Below are positions 15,522 to 31,300 of a DNA stretch of 64,000 nucleotides, in pieces. The notes under the pieces were generated by a model. That model made no database searches. It was given only the letters and a program-made list of their open reading frames with translations, and had not been told where the DNA came from. The DNA comes from Isosphaeraceae bacterium EP7 (GTDB lineage: Bacteria; Planctomycetota; Planctomycetia; Isosphaerales; Isosphaeraceae), in NCBI GenBank assembly GCA_038400315.1, contig CP151667.1:2119174-2183173 (forward strand). Reading direction: 5' to 3'. The first letter of the stretch is position 1. Each line of letters begins with the position of its first letter. Both the position numbers and the translations under genes were made by a program.

Positions 15522-16166
15522 TCAACCTGAAGATGGGCCAGGTTCCCGCGAGTGGGTCGACGGGAAGGGAGCGAGAAGGACGGTCGAGGCGTTGTCGTCC
15601 CTCAGGTTCCGGTAGCAAACCCGACCCAAAGACGCTGCGGTCTTCTCGAAGGCGGTGTCGACGAGCCCGAGCCTGGCGGCCTCGGAACGAGTGGTGGGGA
15701 CCGGGGCCGGGGCACTCTTCAGCATCAAGAGGCACGAGGCGTCCAGGCGGACGGCCAGGCGGGCGGCGATCGTATCCGTGGTCACCGACCAGTCGTGCGG
15801 CAGCGGATCCGTCGAATCACGATCTTCATCATCGAGGAACCGCCGCGGAGCCAGCACGGGAATCCGGCCCGAAGCCCGCGCAGACTCGAGCAGATCGAGT
15901 CGATCGACGACGACAAGACCGGGCATCATCGAGGCCAGGGCGTGCGCCGTCAGGTCGAGTGCATGAAGCGCCAAAGCGTGCGCGGCGGGCTCGCCCAGGC
16001 CGTGGACCAGGTCCAGGGTCCGGACGAAATCGGCGGCGGGACCTCCGCCCACGATGAGGACGGGCCGTCGGTCACGAAGCCCTTGCAGCAGAGTCGCCAG
16101 GCGGCCGGGCAGCGGGGGCCAATCGAGCAGGCTCCCCCCAAGCTTGACGACGAGCGGCCCGTTCAT
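15522..16166 (-). CDS. MfnE-like amino acid kinase family protein (methanofuran biosynthesis)
   Basis: A 214-residue protein of the amino-acid kinase/uridylate kinase fold: VVKLGGSLLD at residues 6-15, VLIVGGGPAADFVR, and an Asp-containing segment SVTTDTIAARLA. Archaeal MfnE (MJ0458), a uridylate-kinase relative, phosphorylates aminomethyl-furanmethanol phosphate to the diphosphate in methanofuran synthesis, and homologues recur in bacterial H4MPT/methylofuran clusters. Its start overlaps the stop of the MfnF-like gene by 4 bases and the MfnD-like gene precedes that, so the three form one operon. The function is inferred from fold plus context. The C-terminal 15 residues (STHSREPGPSSG) look disordered. 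Confidence 0.8.
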   Translation of the reverse strand: MNGPLVVKLGGSLLDWPPLPGRLATLLQGLRDRRPVLIVGGGPAADFVRTLDLVHGLGEPAAHALALHALDLTAHALASMMPGLVVVDRLDLLESARASGRIPVLAPRRFLDDEDRDSTDPLPHDWSVTTDTIAARLAVRLDASCLLMLKSAPAPVPTTRSEAARLGLVDTAFEKTAASLGRVCYRNLRDDNASTVLLAPFPSTHSREPGPSSG

Positions 16167-17188
16167 CGCTCCAGCTCATCCGCGAGGACGACCAGGGCGT
16201 GGGCGCAGGCGGCCCCTGATGCGACGGGCCCCCAGGCATCATCGAGCCGCACGATCGGGCTGCCGGCCCCGACGATCCGGGCTGCTAATCGCGCAGCCAG
16301 GAACGAGCCGGTCCCGGCGACGACGACCGCCGCTGGCGGGCCGCCTGCGGCCGCGAATACGCGTCTGGCCGCGATTTCAAGCCGGTCGAGTAGCGCCGAA
16401 TCGGCGGCCAACGCCAGAGCTCGCGCCTCGTCGAGCGAGAATCCTTCGCGGTCGGCGCCGACCATCCTGGCCAGACGGTCGCGGGCGTCGTCCACCGTTG
16501 CGGGACGACCGTCGGCGGTCGAGTCGTCGAGGGGGTCGGGCGAGATGTCGCCCAGAGACAGATAGACATCCAGGGTGGTGGCGAAGAGTTCGGCGGCCAG
16601 CCCCGTGGGCCTGCCCCGGTGAGGCAATTCGGTGGCCAGGGCGCAAACGGGCGTCCGCCGCACCCCGGCGTAGACCAGCTCGCCGGTCTGAAGCCGCTCG
16701 GTGTCGGTCCGGCCCTCCGGGACGGCGCGACCGTCGCGCGTCGGGATCAGGTCGGCGGTGGTCGAGCCGATGTCGACGAGCAGTCCGGGTCCTTCTGGGA
16801 TCAGCCTGGCGGCCACCTGGGCGAGCGCCAGCCAGTTCGCCGCGGCGGCGAGCATCGGGCGGGCCCGGATCTCGTCGGGGGAGTGGAACTCGCTGTCGAC
16901 TCCCCAGACCAGGGGTGGGGCGACCGGGACGGCGTTTTCCACCGCGGCGAGCACGGCCAGGACGCCCGCCGTCTTCGTCTCGTAGCAGTCGCAGAGCTCC
17001 GCGGTCATCGTCAGCGCCAGAACTTCGGCCGCGGGCATCGACGCAGCAAGCCGGGCCAGGGCGCCACCGAGCTGGTCTGGCTGCTTCCAGAGCTCGAAGG
17101 GCATCGACCTCGCCATGCCCGAGGAATGGGCCGCCTTGATATTTGCCCCCCCAACGTCGAGCGCCAGGGTCCGTTTCGTCGCGGCCAT
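16163..17188 (-). CDS. MfnF-like H4MPT-linked C1 pathway protein (hydantoinase/oxoprolinase fold)
   Basis: A 341-residue protein with an actin/hexokinase-like ATPase fold: LALDVGGANIKAA near residues 8-20, GLLVDIGSTTADLIP in the middle and VVVAGTGSFLAARLAAR near the end. It matches the family annotated as 'probable H4MPT-linked C1 transfer pathway protein', which includes archaeal MfnF, the enzyme that couples the furan diphosphate to gamma-glutamyl-tyramine. The ATG at 17188 lies one base after the upstream stop (TGAGATG) with AGGGGG ten bases before it. An ATG at 17230 is possible but overlaps the upstream gene. The exact bacterial reaction is inferred. Confidence 0.85.
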   Translation of the reverse strand: MAATKRTLALDVGGANIKAAHSSGMARSMPFELWKQPDQLGGALARLAASMPAAEVLALTMTAELCDCYETKTAGVLAVLAAVENAVPVAPPLVWGVDSEFHSPDEIRARPMLAAAANWLALAQVAARLIPEGPGLLVDIGSTTADLIPTRDGRAVPEGRTDTERLQTGELVYAGVRRTPVCALATELPHRGRPTGLAAELFATTLDVYLSLGDISPDPLDDSTADGRPATVDDARDRLARMVGADREGFSLDEARALALAADSALLDRLEIAARRVFAAAGGPPAAVVVAGTGSFLAARLAARIVGAGSPIVRLDDAWGPVASGAACAHALVVLADELER

Positions 17189-17189
17189 C

Positions 17190-18272
17190 TCAGGCGGTCC
17201 CCCTGGGGTTGCTCGTGTAAACCCGCACATGGCCGGCGGCGGAGAAGTCGATTCGTGGCGTCTTGCGGACGTCGTCCCAGATGCGCCGGAGGTCCTCGAG
17301 GTCGAAGTCGGTCAGGCCGAGTAGCCCCAGCCAGGCCCGTGCCAACCGGCCGGGGGTGAGCTTCGCCCAGAGCCCGACGATTGAAGTTGTCACCCGCGGG
17401 TTGACCTCCAGGATCACCACCTTCCCGTCGTCGGCGGCGATCAGGTCCACACCGATGAGCCCGCGCAGGCCCGGGATCTTCTCCAGGGCCCTCTGGCCCA
17501 GCTCGGCGGCGGCCTTCGCTCGGGCCTCGTCGGGATCGGGCAAGGTCCCCCCCTCGTAGCGAAACCGACCCCCTTCAAAGGCCATTCGCTGGGTCCCGAC
17601 TGTTAAGGGGTAGACCCGTCCCGCGTTGCAGACGAGGAAGATTGCGCCCAGCAAAACGCCGGGGAAGTAAGGCTGGGCCACCATCTCCCCCTCGGGGATG
17701 ACATCAAGGGGGATCGGGTCGCCGTAGGCGTCGATGCGCACGGTGTCCACCGCGCCAGCTCCGTCGATCGGCTTGATGACGATGGGGAAGGGGAGGTCGG
17801 CGGGCAGGCCTTGGGCGAGGTCCACCAGGCGGGTCGGCAGCGTCGGCAGCCCCCGCAACTCAAGGTAGCCTGCCATGGTCAGCTTGTTCCCTGCGAGTGC
17901 GATCGCGCCGCGGTTGCTCCCCATCATGGGCTTGCCCGAACGCTCGATGATGCGGACCCGTTCGAGTAGAATGCCGCCTGCCTCGGGGGCAACGAGCACC
18001 GTCGCGTCGCAGGCGGCCGACAGCCGCTCGAGTTCGGCCAGCTCCTGACCGGGGCCGACGCGCGCGACCGTCCAGGCGCCAGGCTCGTCGGGCAGCTGCT
18101 CATCGAGCGTCATCACGACGTCGACGCCGGCTGCCGAGAACTCTTCGGCCAGGACACGCCTCATCGTGCTCCCCTCGCTCACCCAGTAGGAAGGGAGCTT
18201 GACGCCAGCAAGTCCTCCGCCGGTCGCGTATTCGTGGATCAAGACCGTCCGATTCGCGGAGCGATCGCCCAT
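17190..18272 (-). CDS. ATP-grasp ligase, MfnD-like (H4MPT/methylofuran cluster)
   Basis: A 360-residue ATP-grasp protein. The N-terminus reads MGDRSANRTVLIHEYATGGG. ATP-grasp features include KPMMGSNRGAIALAGNKL, LPFPIVIKPIDGAGAVDTV and the metal-binding segment GVDLIAADDGKVVILEVNPR. Archaeal MfnD (MJ0815) is an ATP-grasp tyramine-glutamate ligase. In bacteria the equivalent probably joins glutamate to tyrosine or a related acceptor of methylofuran, since characterised methylofuran has tyrosine. It heads the MfnD-F-E operon. Its ATG at 18272 shares bases with the ATG of the divergent HisA-like gene; the family's N-terminus begins close to this point, so no better start exists downstream. Confidence 0.85.
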   Translation of the reverse strand: MGDRSANRTVLIHEYATGGGLAGVKLPSYWVSEGSTMRRVLAEEFSAAGVDVVMTLDEQLPDEPGAWTVARVGPGQELAELERLSAACDATVLVAPEAGGILLERVRIIERSGKPMMGSNRGAIALAGNKLTMAGYLELRGLPTLPTRLVDLAQGLPADLPFPIVIKPIDGAGAVDTVRIDAYGDPIPLDVIPEGEMVAQPYFPGVLLGAIFLVCNAGRVYPLTVGTQRMAFEGGRFRYEGGTLPDPDEARAKAAAELGQRALEKIPGLRGLIGVDLIAADDGKVVILEVNPRVTTSIVGLWAKLTPGRLARAWLGLLGLTDFDLEDLRRIWDDVRKTPRIDFSAAGHVRVYTSNPRGTA

Positions 18273-19017
18273 GCCTATCAGGCTCATCCCTGTCCTCGAT
18301 CTGAAGGGTGGCCAGGCCGTCCATGCGGTCGCCGGCAATCGGGCCCATTATCGCCCGATCCGCGGTCGCTTGCATCAGGGTTCCGACCCGATCGGCCTGT
18401 CCCTCGCTTATCGAGACTCGCTCGGCCTCGAGGACCTCTACCTGGCCGACCTCGACGCCATCGAGGGGCAGGCGCCGTCATATTCACTCTATCATGAGAT
18501 CTCACGCCTCGGAATCAACCTCTGGGTTGATGCCGGACTCGCGGGGCCTGGGCCCGTGCTCGCCCTGCTCGACGCGGGAGTCCGCACGATCGTGGCCGGC
18601 CTGGAATCGCTGGGAAGCCCGCTGGACCTCGCCGAGATCGTCCAGACCGCGGGGGCTGGTCGGGTCGCCTTCAGCCTCGACCTCCGGGACGGGGCCCCGA
18701 TCGTGGCCCCTGGATCGGCCTGGCGCGAGCCCGGAAATCCCGACTCGATCACCCGAGAGGCCGTCGAGGCGGGGGTCGGTCACGTCATCGTGCTCGACCT
18801 GGCACGCGTCGGTCTGGGCCGGGGCACCGGCGCCTCGGACCTGATCCGTCGACTCAGTCCATCGCTTCCCGGCGTCCGCTGGGTCGCTGGCGGGGGGGTC
18901 GCTGGCGTCGAAGATCTCGACGAGTTGGGACGCGCGGGGGCGGTCGGTGCGCTCGTCGGGACGGCCCTGCATCGCGGAGTCCTGACGCGCACCGACCTCG
19001 AACGCTTCCGTCACTGA
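18271..19017 (+). CDS. HisA/HisF-family TIM-barrel protein of the H4MPT cluster
   Basis: A 248-residue TIM barrel related to HisA: MPIRLIPVLDLKGGQAVHAV at the N-terminus, DLYLADLDAIEG in an early strand, and the phosphate-binding loop WVAGGGVAGVEDLDEL with GALVGTALHRG near the end. Histidine genes are not adjacent. HisA/HisF-like proteins of this type occur in methanogens and in bacteria using H4MPT, next to methanofuran genes, so a role in pterin or furan cofactor synthesis is more likely than histidine synthesis. The ATG at 18271 fits the family's N-terminus. It is divergent from the MfnD-like gene and convergent with the pirin gene, 13 bases away. Confidence 0.82.
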   Translation: MPIRLIPVLDLKGGQAVHAVAGNRAHYRPIRGRLHQGSDPIGLSLAYRDSLGLEDLYLADLDAIEGQAPSYSLYHEISRLGINLWVDAGLAGPGPVLALLDAGVRTIVAGLESLGSPLDLAEIVQTAGAGRVAFSLDLRDGAPIVAPGSAWREPGNPDSITREAVEAGVGHVIVLDLARVGLGRGTGASDLIRRLSPSLPGVRWVAGGGVAGVEDLDELGRAGAVGALVGTALHRGVLTRTDLERFRH

Positions 19018-19030
19018 GGCCCCCGTCGGT

Positions 19031-19744
19031 TCAACCGAGGTCGAAGAGCAGGACCTCGGCCGGGAATTCGCTGGACCCGACCGTCGCCTCGATCACGATC
19101 TCCGAAACGTCGTCGACCCCGAGCGCATCGCCGGTTCCCAGAGTCTCACCGGCGACGCGGACCTGACCCCGGACGACCTGGATCCAGGCCGACCGACCCT
19201 CCGCCAGTGCGTGGCGGGCGGGAGTTCCCGGGGTGGCCTGGCCGATCAGGACATCCGCATCCTGGTGGATTCGCATCGACCCCTCACGGGCGTCGGGCGA
19301 GGCGACCAGGACGAACTGTCCGGGCTTCGTGGCGCCGGCGAACGACTTCTGCTCATAGCCGGGCTCCAGGTCATGGGCGTCCGGCAGGATCCAGATCTGC
19401 AGCAGGTGGACGGGATCGGTCTTCGAGGCGTTGGCCTCGGCGTGCATGATTCCTTTGCCCGCCGTCATCCGCTGCCATTCACCGGGCCCGATCGTCGAGC
19501 CGTGGCCCAGGCTGTCGCGGTGGGCTAGTGCGCCGTCGATCAGGTACGTCAGAATTTCCATATCGCGATGCGGGTGGGCGCCGAACTCGCCGCCCGGAGC
19601 GATCCGGTCCTCGTTCAAGACCCTGAGCGTGCGGTAACGCACCCAGGCGGGGTCGCGATAATCGCCGAACGAGAACGTGTGATAGGTGTCGAGCCAGCCG
19701 TGATCGAAGTGGCCTCGCTCGGTCGAACGTCGGACGCGGACCAT
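19031..19744 (-). CDS. Pirin family protein (YhaK-type)
   Basis: A 237-residue bicupin of the pirin family; some members have quercetinase activity and some act in redox sensing. The metal site is complete: His57 and His59 (GAHPHRD), His101 and Glu103 (IMHAEA). FSFGDYRDPAWVRYRTLRVL is the usual N-terminal cupin strand segment. The ATG at 19744 has GGAGAT upstream; a longer in-frame start at 19816 overlaps doxX. It follows doxX by 40 bases and marR lies before that, all on one strand, which suggests a single stress-responsive operon. Confidence 0.9.
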   Translation of the reverse strand: MVRVRRSTERGHFDHGWLDTYHTFSFGDYRDPAWVRYRTLRVLNEDRIAPGGEFGAHPHRDMEILTYLIDGALAHRDSLGHGSTIGPGEWQRMTAGKGIMHAEANASKTDPVHLLQIWILPDAHDLEPGYEQKSFAGATKPGQFVLVASPDAREGSMRIHQDADVLIGQATPGTPARHALAEGRSAWIQVVRGQVRVAGETLGTGDALGVDDVSEIVIEATVGSSEFPAEVLLFDLG

Positions 19745-19784
19745 GATCGGATCTCCTTCAAGCGTGGGGGCATCATAGCCCGGG

Positions 19785-20255
19785 TCAGTCGAGGCGAGTG
19801 GCTTCTGTTGCTCCAATTGACCGATGCCGGCGGCGGGCGAGCAGGGCGTCGAGCGACAGGCCCCCTGCGCCGGTCAATCCCAGGCCGAGGACGACGACCA
19901 GCAGCGTCAGGGGATACTCCATTCCGCCCGTGGCGGCGTTGAAGCCCTTGGAATGCACCGTGAGGATTGCCACCGCCATCGTCGCCACCATCGGGATGGC
20001 CGCGAGGCGGGTGAGCAGGCCGAGCACCATCGCCGCCCCGCCGAAGAACTCCGCAGACCCGGCCAGCACGGCGTTCACCCCAGGAGCCGGCACACCGAGC
20101 GAGGTCAGGAAGCCCGAGAACCCCGCAAGCCCAGGTCCGCCGAAGGCCCCGAACAGCTTCTGGCTGCCATGGTAGAGGAAGACCACCCCAATGATCAGGC
20201 GGATCGCCAGTAACCCCAGGTCACGCGCCGTCTTTTCCCGTTCGATCGTCGCCAT
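19785..20255 (-). CDS. DoxX family membrane protein
   Basis: A 156-residue inner-membrane protein with four predicted helices: LLAIRLIIGVVFLYHGSQKL, the VLAGSAEFFGGAAMVLGLL region, IPMVATMAVAILTV and LTLLVVVLGLGLTGAGG. The YHGSQKLFGAFGG segment after helix 1 is typical of DoxX/YphA-like proteins. Family members take part in quinone or thiosulfate redox reactions and in oxidative stress tolerance. The ATG at 20255 has GGGGTGA upstream. Its upstream gap carries a copy of the motif found in the marR promoter, which suggests direct control by that regulator. Confidence 0.9.
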   Translation of the reverse strand: MATIEREKTARDLGLLAIRLIIGVVFLYHGSQKLFGAFGGPGLAGFSGFLTSLGVPAPGVNAVLAGSAEFFGGAAMVLGLLTRLAAIPMVATMAVAILTVHSKGFNAATGGMEYPLTLLVVVLGLGLTGAGGLSLDALLARRRHRSIGATEATRLD

Positions 20256-28375: not shown

Positions 28376-31300
28376 TCAGGGGCTCAGAGGAAGTTTGCCA
28401 AACTTCCAGATCCGGATCCCCCCCTTATGGTCGGCCGACGCGAAAGCCTTCCCGTCGGCCGAGAGGGCCAGGTCATTCAAGCGGGTGCCGTGATCGCCCA
28501 GGCTGATGAGCTCCTGCTGAGCGACCACGTCCCAGAAGCGGAGCTTGCCGTCATGCCCGGCGGTCGCCACTGTCTCGCCGTCGGGAAGATACACGACCGC
28601 CTCGATCCCCTCCCCGCAGACACCGATATCCCGCCCCTCGGAGCCGTCGAGCTTGTACAGCCTTAGGTGTCCGTCTTTGCCGCCGACGGCGAGGGTCTTG
28701 CCGTCCGGAGAAAAGGCGAGCGTCCAGATCTCGTCGTATCCAACCTCGAAGGACGAGATGAGCTCCAGGGTCCGTGCGTCCCAGACGCGGATCTGGCGGT
28801 CCCCGCCCCCGCTGACGAATCGATCTCCCGCGGGGTTAAATTTCAGAGTGTGGAGGCCTGCCGTACTCGTACTCGCAGCGAGCTTTGCGAGCAGGCGACC
28901 GTTGGACGGGTCCCAGGCGCGGATGGAGCCGTCGAACCCGCCGGCGACGAGCAGGCGGCCGTCGGGTCGATACGCGATCGCCCGCGGGTGATACAGATGT
29001 CCAAGCATCTTGGGCGGGGCCTTACCGAGCTTCTTCAGATCCCAGAGAAGGATATTACTTTCGTAGTCGCCCGTGGCGACGTGCCGCCCGTCGGGGGAGG
29101 AGCAGACGACCGAGATCAACGCCCCCGTGCGCTGCGATCGGCCCACCTCCAAACCGGTCTTCGCGTCCCAGATTCGGATCAGATTGTCGTCCCCCACCGA
29201 AACCAGTCTTTTGCTATTGGGGAGCCAGGAGAGCGACCAGGCTTCGGCATCATGGCCGGTAGGCACGACAGGGTTGGGAGAAGGGTTCAATCGCCGGATC
29301 GCGACATGATGATCGCCGCCGCCGGTGATCCAGGATCTCCCGTTGGGCGTGAATGCAGTCCCCCAGACAGACCCACGGATATCGTGGATCGCCGTGTCGA
29401 GGATCGTCCCGGTCGTGGCGTCAATCAGATACGCCTCCTTGATCGACGTCCCGACCGAAATGCTTGCGGAGTCGGGCGAGAAGGTCATCGTCAGCGGCCT
29501 GCTCCCTTCAGGGATCTTGACGGTCAGGCGAGCCGCACCCGTCGCCGTGTCATGGATCACGATCCGGCTGAGATCCCGGCCCAACGCGAGGGCGAGTGAG
29601 CGGCCATTTCTGGAAACAGCGGCCACCGTGCAGGCACCTTTCGCCTCGGGCCCCAGTTTAAGCCAGGCTAGCCCACTGTTCACGTCGATAAGTCGCCCGC
29701 CGCGATCGTTGACCTCGATCGCGGTCAGGCCCCGGCCCGGTAGGTTGACGATCTGATCGACGTTTGTCAGGCCGGTCTCGACCCGCCGCAGCACGCCCGA
29801 CCTGGCGTCGAAGAGGGCGTGTTTGCCCCACTGCTGGGGCGTACCCCCCGTGACCGCGAGGAACTTCCCCGCGGAGTCAAAGGTAACGCTGCGGAGCAGG
29901 TTGAAATCGAGGTCGAAGCTCGAGAGCGGGCGATCCGATCGGCGAGCATTCCAGAGGGAGACCCTGCCGGGCTGCCCGACGTGACCGGTCTCGCAGACGG
30001 CGAGCGTCTCCCGATCGGGCGAGAAGGCTAACGCGGTGACTTCGCTCGGCTTTTTACGAGCCTGGATCCGCGCCAGCGGCGGCCGTCTGGGCTGCGTCGG
30101 ATCCCAGATCGTCACCCACGCTGGCGCGTACTGGTCGGCCCATCCCGTGGCCAGGAGCCGGCCGTCTGCGGAAATAGACATCGCGGTGACGCCCCCCATG
30201 CGCGAGGGGAGGAAGGCGACGTCGGTGTAACAGAGGTTGTTCATCAGCCGCCAGGCGAGGCCCCTCACGTCTCGTTCGCCGGCGGCAGGCGTCTCCTGGG
30301 CCAGGAGCGCCTGCGCCTCGGGGATCCGGCCGGCCTCTCGCTCGCGGGCGACGGCCGTGAGGCGAGCTGAATGCAGGGCCCGGCGATTGAGCCAGGACTG
30401 GGCCTCGGCCGCCTCTCGATTCCGCTCCGCCTCGACCGCGTTGGCGCGTTCTCGCACCGCCGAGGCCCAGAGCGAGGCGTTGGACCAGGCCAGGCCGGCC
30501 CAGATTCCCGCCGAGGCCAGCAGCAAGGCTGCGGCCAGGCCCCCGACCGCCGGTCTCTTCTTCAACCAGCGATAGGTGGTCCACCAGCGAGACGGGGCGC
30601 GCGCGAGGATCGGCTGATCCGCTTCGAAACGACGGAGGTCGGCCGCCAGGTCGCCGGCCGAGGCATAGCGCGAGCTCGGGGACTTGGCCAGGCAATTCTG
30701 CACGATCGTCTGCAAGTCGAGGGAGAGACCCGGGCGGAGCCGGCAGGGGTCGATCGCGTCATCCTGGATGACCTGGCGGATCGTCTCGTGCGGCGAATCC
30801 CCGCGGAACGGGACGCGGCCCGTCAGCATCTGATAGAGGATGATGCCCAGCGAGTAGACATCGGCCATCCGGCCGATCTCCGACGGTCTGCCCAAGGCCT
30901 GCTCGGGTGACATATACGGATAGGAGCCGATCGGATGGCCGCTGATCGTGTCATCCCCGACTTCGTAGAGGATCTTGGCCAGTCCGAAATCGACAATCTT
31001 GGCCGTCAGTCGCGGCTCGTCACCGGGCAGCTCCTCCACATCGTCATGGAGTAGGATGTTAGCGGGCTTCAGGTCCCGGTGCAGCACGTCATGGTCGTGC
31101 GCGTGCTGGACGGCCTCGGCCACGTCGGCGATCAGCGCCACGGCCGTGCCGATCGGCACAGGCTCGGTCCTGCCGTGCAGCCATTCGGCCAGGTTCATCC
31201 CTTCGATGTAGGCCGAGGCGATGTACGCAACGGGCCCGACCTCGCCTGCCTCATAGATCCGCACGATCCCGGCGTGGTCGAGGCTCGCCGCGGCGCGGGC

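Follow-up and report, generated by a model that had tools for sequence, protein, structure and literature searches.

In the 64,000-nt stretch of Isosphaeraceae bacterium EP7 DNA analyzed here (the window), a HisA-like gene and a divergent MfnD-like gene overlap at their start codons, the overlap is conserved in the family, and -10-like hexamers inside both coding sequences are under synonymous constraint. The reading that we favor, with a probability of about 0.55, is that of a conserved start-to-start pair, probably serving methylofuran/methanofuran synthesis, in which each gene carries the promoter of the other within its coding sequence, in an excludon-like manner. Judged from sequence, the hexamers would be the working promoters of the HisA-like gene and of the mfnD run, and the two promoters would interfere with each other.

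Window positions 18270-18273 form the palindrome CATG, which is common to both start codons, as the preliminary description had it and as the window sequence and its open reading frames bear out. On the plus strand, the ATG at 18271-18273 opens a 248-aa HisA-like ORF (18271-19017), and on the minus strand, the ATG at 18272-18270 opens a 360-aa MfnD-like ORF (17190-18272). The two coding sequences share 2 nt (18271-18272) and are, by that token, a divergent overlapping gene pair. We place the HisA-like start firmly at 18271; the sole other in-frame start is a TTG at 18199, 24 codons upstream, the frame is bounded upstream by a stop at 18187, and the Pfam His_biosynth domain is matched from residue 4 onwards. 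The MfnD-like start at 18272 is less firm. An in-frame ATG at 18287-18285, five codons upstream, scored 0.9 nats better in our own gene caller; its use would enlarge the overlap to 17 nt and would still leave no gap, and the claimed absence of intergenic space is thus upheld with either start. The only later start seen for the MfnD-like gene was a TTG at 18242-18240, which would cut into the conserved RTVLIHEY stretch. The further claim that both protein families begin at about this residue was right for HisA and less so for MfnD, whose conserved core begins about 8 residues in and is preceded by a tail of variable length.

The HisA-like protein matched PF00977 (E 1.1e-29), and its best NCBIfam match was TIGR00734 (hisAF_rel), at 89.4 bits and below the cut-off of 179.85. 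As the HisA of histidine synthesis (TIGR00007) it scored below the cut-off too, with 71 bits against 228.95; a second HisA/HisF-type place exists in the same genome at C1:4427511-4428194. A putative pirin-like gene on the minus strand (window 19031-19816) runs towards the HisA-like gene, the two 3' ends being separated by 13 nt. The MfnD-like protein is an ATP-grasp protein (PF02655 and PF18301) that scored 79.9 bits against NF040722 (MfnD tyramine-glutamate ligase), below the cut-off of 400, and is hence called MfnD-like only. Directly behind it on the minus strand follows an MfnF-like gene (16163-17188; start at 17188 from our own gene caller), whose match to TIGR03123 (H4MPT-linked C1 pathway protein), computed from a longer start at 17230, reached 279.6 bits and exceeded the cut-off of 244.1. 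Third in this mfnD-mfnF-mfnE-like run is an MfnE-like kinase gene (15522-16166, minus strand; PF00696), with 44.5 bits against NF040622 (MfnE; cut-off 300). MfnF was found behind MfnD in 29 of the 30 relatives' loci examined.

In Methylorubrum, deletion of Orf17, a member of the PF00977 family, abolishes methylofuran, and the same work describes the reaction of Orf17 as not known (PMC8141765). Compared with the methylofuran/methanofuran genes as presented there (Orf17, MfnD, MfnF, MfnE), the planctomycete genes show corresponding PF00977, ATP-grasp, TIGR03123 and kinase matches, but they are known by sequence, and all except the TIGR03123 match fall below the NCBIfam cut-offs. The run of MfnD-, MfnF- and MfnE-like genes and the likeness to the Orf17 family therefore make it plausible that both genes belong to one cofactor pathway, that of methylofuran/methanofuran synthesis. 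The earlier label of "cofactor genes" is accordingly plausible, with TIGR03123 as the one family match above its cut-off.

Among the 45 family genomes searched (an order-level search gave the same 45), a HisA-like gene was found at E 1e-20 or better in 43, and in all 43 an MfnD-like match adjoins it divergently. Included in this count is G065 (L067), in whose draft contig the MfnD frame is broken 9 codons past the aligned start, through damage or an assembly error. The overlap called for a check of its conservation: in 24 of the 43 genomes, the window among them, a single CATG provides the start of both frames. These genomes represent 14 of 20 genera and are scattered over deep as well as shallow branches of a rapidly built tree, several of whose forks are weak and on which the three layout states require at least 11 changes. 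For the comparisons below, a "tight" set of 38 genomes was used, leaving aside the genomes of g6 (4), g21 (1) and f4 (2), which have wider junctions or belong to a different group. The shared CATG is gone in 14 of the 38 tight genomes, yet the tight layout is kept; in 12 of these 14, the closest start pair ranges from 14 nt overlapped to 5 nt apart, and in G026 it is 24 nt apart. The junction of G029 (L012) has no ATG, GTG or TTG in frame before the HisA core, which an ATT start or a sequencing error might explain. Several relatives carry in-frame MfnD ATGs upstream of the CATG as well, and these vary between genomes. Between the conserved cores, the tight genomes listed span 40-72 nt, and wider junctions measure 90-130 nt in the four g6 genomes and 105 nt in G020; one of the 45 rows of this survey (G044) had no recognized core. 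The core-to-core distance equals 1 modulo 3 in 35 of the 38 tight genomes (one third expected), as would be expected if both variable tails were translated across an undivided junction.

Similar layouts were found beyond the family. In the methanotroph order (that of G067), for which we took the 29 best matches apart from L162 among 98 matching genomes of 121 searched, MfnD is divergent and adjacent in 27 of the 29 best-match loci (L185-L213), the closest start pair lies 9-12 nt apart in 13, and a shared CATG occurs in three (L201, L203 and L206). Among other planctomycete families, the layout is tight in L165 and probably in L182, and in L166 and L167 a spacing of about 270-400 nt separates the genes. 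The proteobacterial records L156 and L158 have MfnD followed by MfnF, in the same order, and the Hyphomicrobiales loci L157 and L160 showed no MfnD match nearby. The spread of the layout across these groups would be compatible with shared descent, block transfer or repeated compaction alike.

Within the own genome, such a junction is unusual. Our gene caller placed 569 genes and 87 divergent pairs on 864 kb; the median divergent gap was 341 nt, with 83 gaps above 100 nt, 2 at 61-100 nt, none at 1-60 nt and 2 at 0 or less. Those two are the HisA-like/MfnD-like pair and, at G000:C1 about 28858-30655, a putative glutaminase-like and a putative riboflavin-synthase-like gene with uncertain starts, called as GTG/GTG with an 8-nt overlap. 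Near G000:C1:44350, another divergent pair has a possible shared CATG that scores within 0.1 nats of the best starts, and a shared CATG by itself is therefore not unique in this genome. Lillo and Krakauer counted 331 divergent overlaps in 58 species and describe them as strongly under-represented, which they put down to the space needed by regulatory elements (PMC2174442). The commonest phase of their divergent overlaps, 123:213 (59% of the 331), is by our own derivation also the phase that a shared CATG gives. The present pair thus resembles theirs in its overlapping opposite-strand 5' ends and in its phase, and differs from them, as far as that account goes, in that the layout is traced here through one family and -10-like hexamers are placed in the partner ORFs by comparison. 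No description of this locus was found in the literature searched, a search that subscription papers largely escape.

The positions at which promoters might lie were approached through a codon-column scan for third bases that are A or T more often than amino acid and genome would predict, covering 38 genomes for HisA and 37 for MfnD (G064 was left out of the MfnD alignments for its aberrantly long frame). In MfnD, the top two of 347 columns are neighbors, residues 90 (z 6.96) and 89 (z 6.91), with 13 of the 347 exceeding a z of 3. Codons 89-91 read GAT TAT ACN in many genomes, and codon 90 has a final T in 30 of 37 genomes, regardless of the residue encoded (Y, C, L, F, H, R or S). In HisA, residues 6 (3.85) and 27 (3.84) lead, residue 26 is third (2.96), and 26-27 form the highest adjacent pair; codons 26-27 are NAT TAT wherever residue 26 is H, D or N (18 of 18 genomes), the gene-wide fractions being 0.38-0.41 (NAT) and 0.53 (TAT). 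Read on the opposite strand, MfnD codons 89-91 give a TATAAT-like hexamer directed towards HisA, and HisA codons 26-28 give GATAAT or CATAAT directed towards MfnD. The A/T pattern thus tracks a -10 element more closely than the protein.

A register scan for hexamers with at least five of six matches to TATAAT, including A2 and T6 and weighted by genus, singled out the same two places. The antisense register at MfnD codon 89 was occupied in 10.4 of 18 genera (shuffled mean 5.0) and that at HisA codon 26 in 11 of 18 (shuffled mean 3.5), values reached in 0 of 400 synonymous shuffles in either case, although the shuffles break shared ancestry, so that they overstate independence and do not give exact probabilities. 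The next best register reached 2.0 of 18 genera, and sense-strand registers reached at most 1.0. Counted by genome, the MfnD site is present in 26 of 37 aligned tight genomes (27 of 38 with G064), the HisA site in 18 of 38, both in 12 of 38 and neither in 5 of 38 (G004, G060, G017, G030 and G012). Hexamer totals point the same way, with 34 antisense hexamers in MfnD codons 1-120 against 17.0 expected (shuffle maximum 26) and 22 in HisA codons 1-60 against 7.5 expected (shuffle maximum 16); totals in other regions and on the sense strand stayed inside the shuffle range. Among genomes without the codon-89 site, G026 and G009 have TACAAT at MfnD codon 104, and genus g9 (G066, G008, G025 and G034), without the codon-26 site, has TACAAT on the MfnD strand at HisA codon 55; both cases may reflect promoter relocation.

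Windowed synonymous conservation rose at the 5' parts of both genes (ratios of 1.28 for MfnD codons 11-20 and 1.38 for HisA codons 21-30), but like peaks elsewhere (1.40 for HisA 131-140 and 1.35 for MfnD 111-120) leave it without a signal on its own. A conserved -10 for HisA, sought in MfnD codons 8-24, was not seen in the family. When sequences were aligned on the -10 hexamers, no TTGACA-like -35 stood at the customary spacing, and positions 17800-18800 gave no hit in a two-box sigma-70 scan. Across the 24 CATG genomes, Shine-Dalgarno duplex energies averaged -5.08 for HisA against -4.41 at a control position (9 versus 6 strong sites) and -4.09 for MfnD against -2.47 (1 versus 1 strong site), which is not decisive. 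In the methanotroph order, scanned without L185 (a near copy of L158), L198, L204 and L211, the antisense register at MfnD codon 14 was occupied in 18 of 27 loci (shuffle maximum 16), the sense reading of codons 14-16 was also high (14 of 27; shuffle maximum 10), and no HisA register exceeded the shuffle maximum (9 versus 15). These registers differ from those of the family and are not decisive for promoter placement.

Gene order provided a control. In other planctomycete families in which the two genes lie apart, none of the 13 MfnD registers that could be located had such a hexamer (another 6 of the 19 non-adjacent controls had no recognized motif), and the HisA register carried one in 1 of 18. 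Among the g6 genomes, with their wider junctions, 0 of the 3 that were readable at the MfnD site had the hexamer; these three and the 13 MfnD controls were judged by eye under the rule of the script. The motif thus accompanies the tight layout, being missing from nearly all non-adjacent orthologues and from these three g6 genomes. Within 120 nt upstream of 373 genes of the own genome, TATAAT-like hexamers numbered 57 in forward and 25 in reverse orientation and were enriched at 20-100 nt before the genes; the leader proposed for HisA, of about 265-300 nt, would be longer than this.

In the window, the proposed -10 of the mfnD run lies at 18347-18352, inside HisA codons 26-28, in the family register and 74 nt from the MfnD start; the plus strand there reads ATTATC, which gives GATAAT in the direction of mfnD. 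The counterpart register in MfnD has been lost here: codons 89-91 (18000-18008, read towards HisA on the plus strand), mostly TATAAT-like in relatives, are GAC GCG ACG and degenerate (CGTCGCGTC), and only the HisA-internal register is kept. A TAGAAT at 17967-17972 (plus strand), inside MfnD and 298 nt upstream of the HisA start, is a candidate -10 for HisA, with no other match in that stretch of the window. It occurs at this place in this genome alone, and the candidate is weak because shuffled genes yield about 0.45 such sites per genome in this stretch (17.0 in 38). The preliminary description had concluded that each promoter must lie inside the other gene. For the family, the registers, the synonymous constraint and the non-adjacent controls argue for such a placement, and for the window half of it is supported; "must" went too far, given that leaderless or unconserved promoters are possible.

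According to the reading that we favor, the promoter of the mfnD-mfnF-mfnE run would lie about 75 nt inside the HisA-like gene, and that of the HisA-like gene would, for most of the family, lie about 260-300 nt within mfnD (in the window perhaps about 300 nt), so that the two would face each other some 340-380 bp apart. Each mRNA would start in the partner gene and cross the CATG, its leader being antisense to the 5' part of the other. With starts 6-8 nt after each -10, the predicted transcripts of the window would overlap by about 360 nt, and mutual damping could follow, either because RNA polymerases collide head-on or because the two 5' ends pair. The preliminary description saw the expression of the two genes as linked; face-to-face promoters would more naturally entail interference, co-expression is not indicated, and regulation by the overlap is plausible. 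This predicted arrangement recalls an excludon with long overlapping 5' leaders (PMC7154746), where the mRNAs of divergent neighbors are antisense to each other at their 5' parts; here, in contrast, the transcripts are predicted from sequence, and both promoters would sit in the partner's coding sequence. The bidirectional bacterial promoter described in PMC10268837 also yields two divergent transcripts from one small region, but a single near-symmetric -10 there gives starts spaced by 7-25 bp, whereas the -10s proposed here are about 340-380 bp apart and face to face, with no sigma-70-like site near the CATG.

The palindromic nature of the shared start, together with the commonness in bacteria of bidirectional promoters with such closely spaced starts (PMC10268837), might nevertheless suggest that the CATG itself is the site of one symmetric promoter or the origin of two leaderless transcripts. 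We regard this as highly improbable: the region 17800-18800 holds no sigma-70-like site, and within about 40 nt of the CATG most of the family has no conserved antisense -10 register (MfnD codon 14: 2.0 of 18 genera). Rather unlikely is also an MfnD start elsewhere, at ATG 18287 or TTG 18242, with the exact shared CATG being incidental in this genome. The better score of ATG 18287 and the upstream in-frame ATGs of several relatives would favor it, but the CATG is common to 23 other family genomes while the upstream ATGs vary; moreover, TTG 18242 would truncate the first conserved stretch, and a start at 18287 would leave no gap in any case. Of similarly low probability is the proposal that the AT-rich registers reflect codon or protein constraint, or antisense-RNA promoters, rather than promoters of the HisA-like and MfnD-like genes. 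HisA residues 26-27 and MfnD residues 89-91 are indeed partly conserved in sequence, the shuffled means at the registers are already appreciable (3.5 and 5.0 of 18 genera), and other MfnD columns have raised A/T third bases (the 13 of 347 noted above); on the other hand, such a constraint would hardly account for a T-ending MfnD codon 90 across seven residues, for non-adjacent orthologues that nearly all lack the hexamers, or for the failure of any other register to exceed 2.0 of 18 genera.

A history of mere compaction deserves more weight, and we hold it possible, if on balance unlikely, that the overlap arose once and was kept as each ATG was needed and only in-phase indels were tolerated, the promoters having had to sit in the neighboring gene and no regulatory coupling being involved. 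Overlapping ORFs alone would lock the phase found in 35 of 38 tight genomes, and both the 14 tight genomes that stay tight without the CATG and the five with neither register are consistent with such a history. By itself, however, it leaves the similar tight layout in the methanotroph order unexplained; it agrees with embedded promoters and departs from our preferred reading only on interference. A bolder version of the embedded face-to-face promoters, in which an evolved two-way interference switch would set a fixed ratio of, or alternate between, the Orf17-like and the MfnD-F-E steps, and the layout would have been kept or re-made from planctomycetes to methanotrophs for the sake of this regulation, appears doubtful to us.

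The pair represents a divergent 5' overlap that has no space for promoters and has yet lasted through a bacterial family. It suggests where promoters may go in such a case, namely to positions in the partner gene at which synonymous codons can spell a -10 element, and the combination of an antisense -10 register scan, synonymous shuffles and non-adjacent orthologues is applicable to other conserved divergent overlaps. For these bacteria, the overlap may represent a possible control point on the synthesis of a methylofuran-type cofactor.
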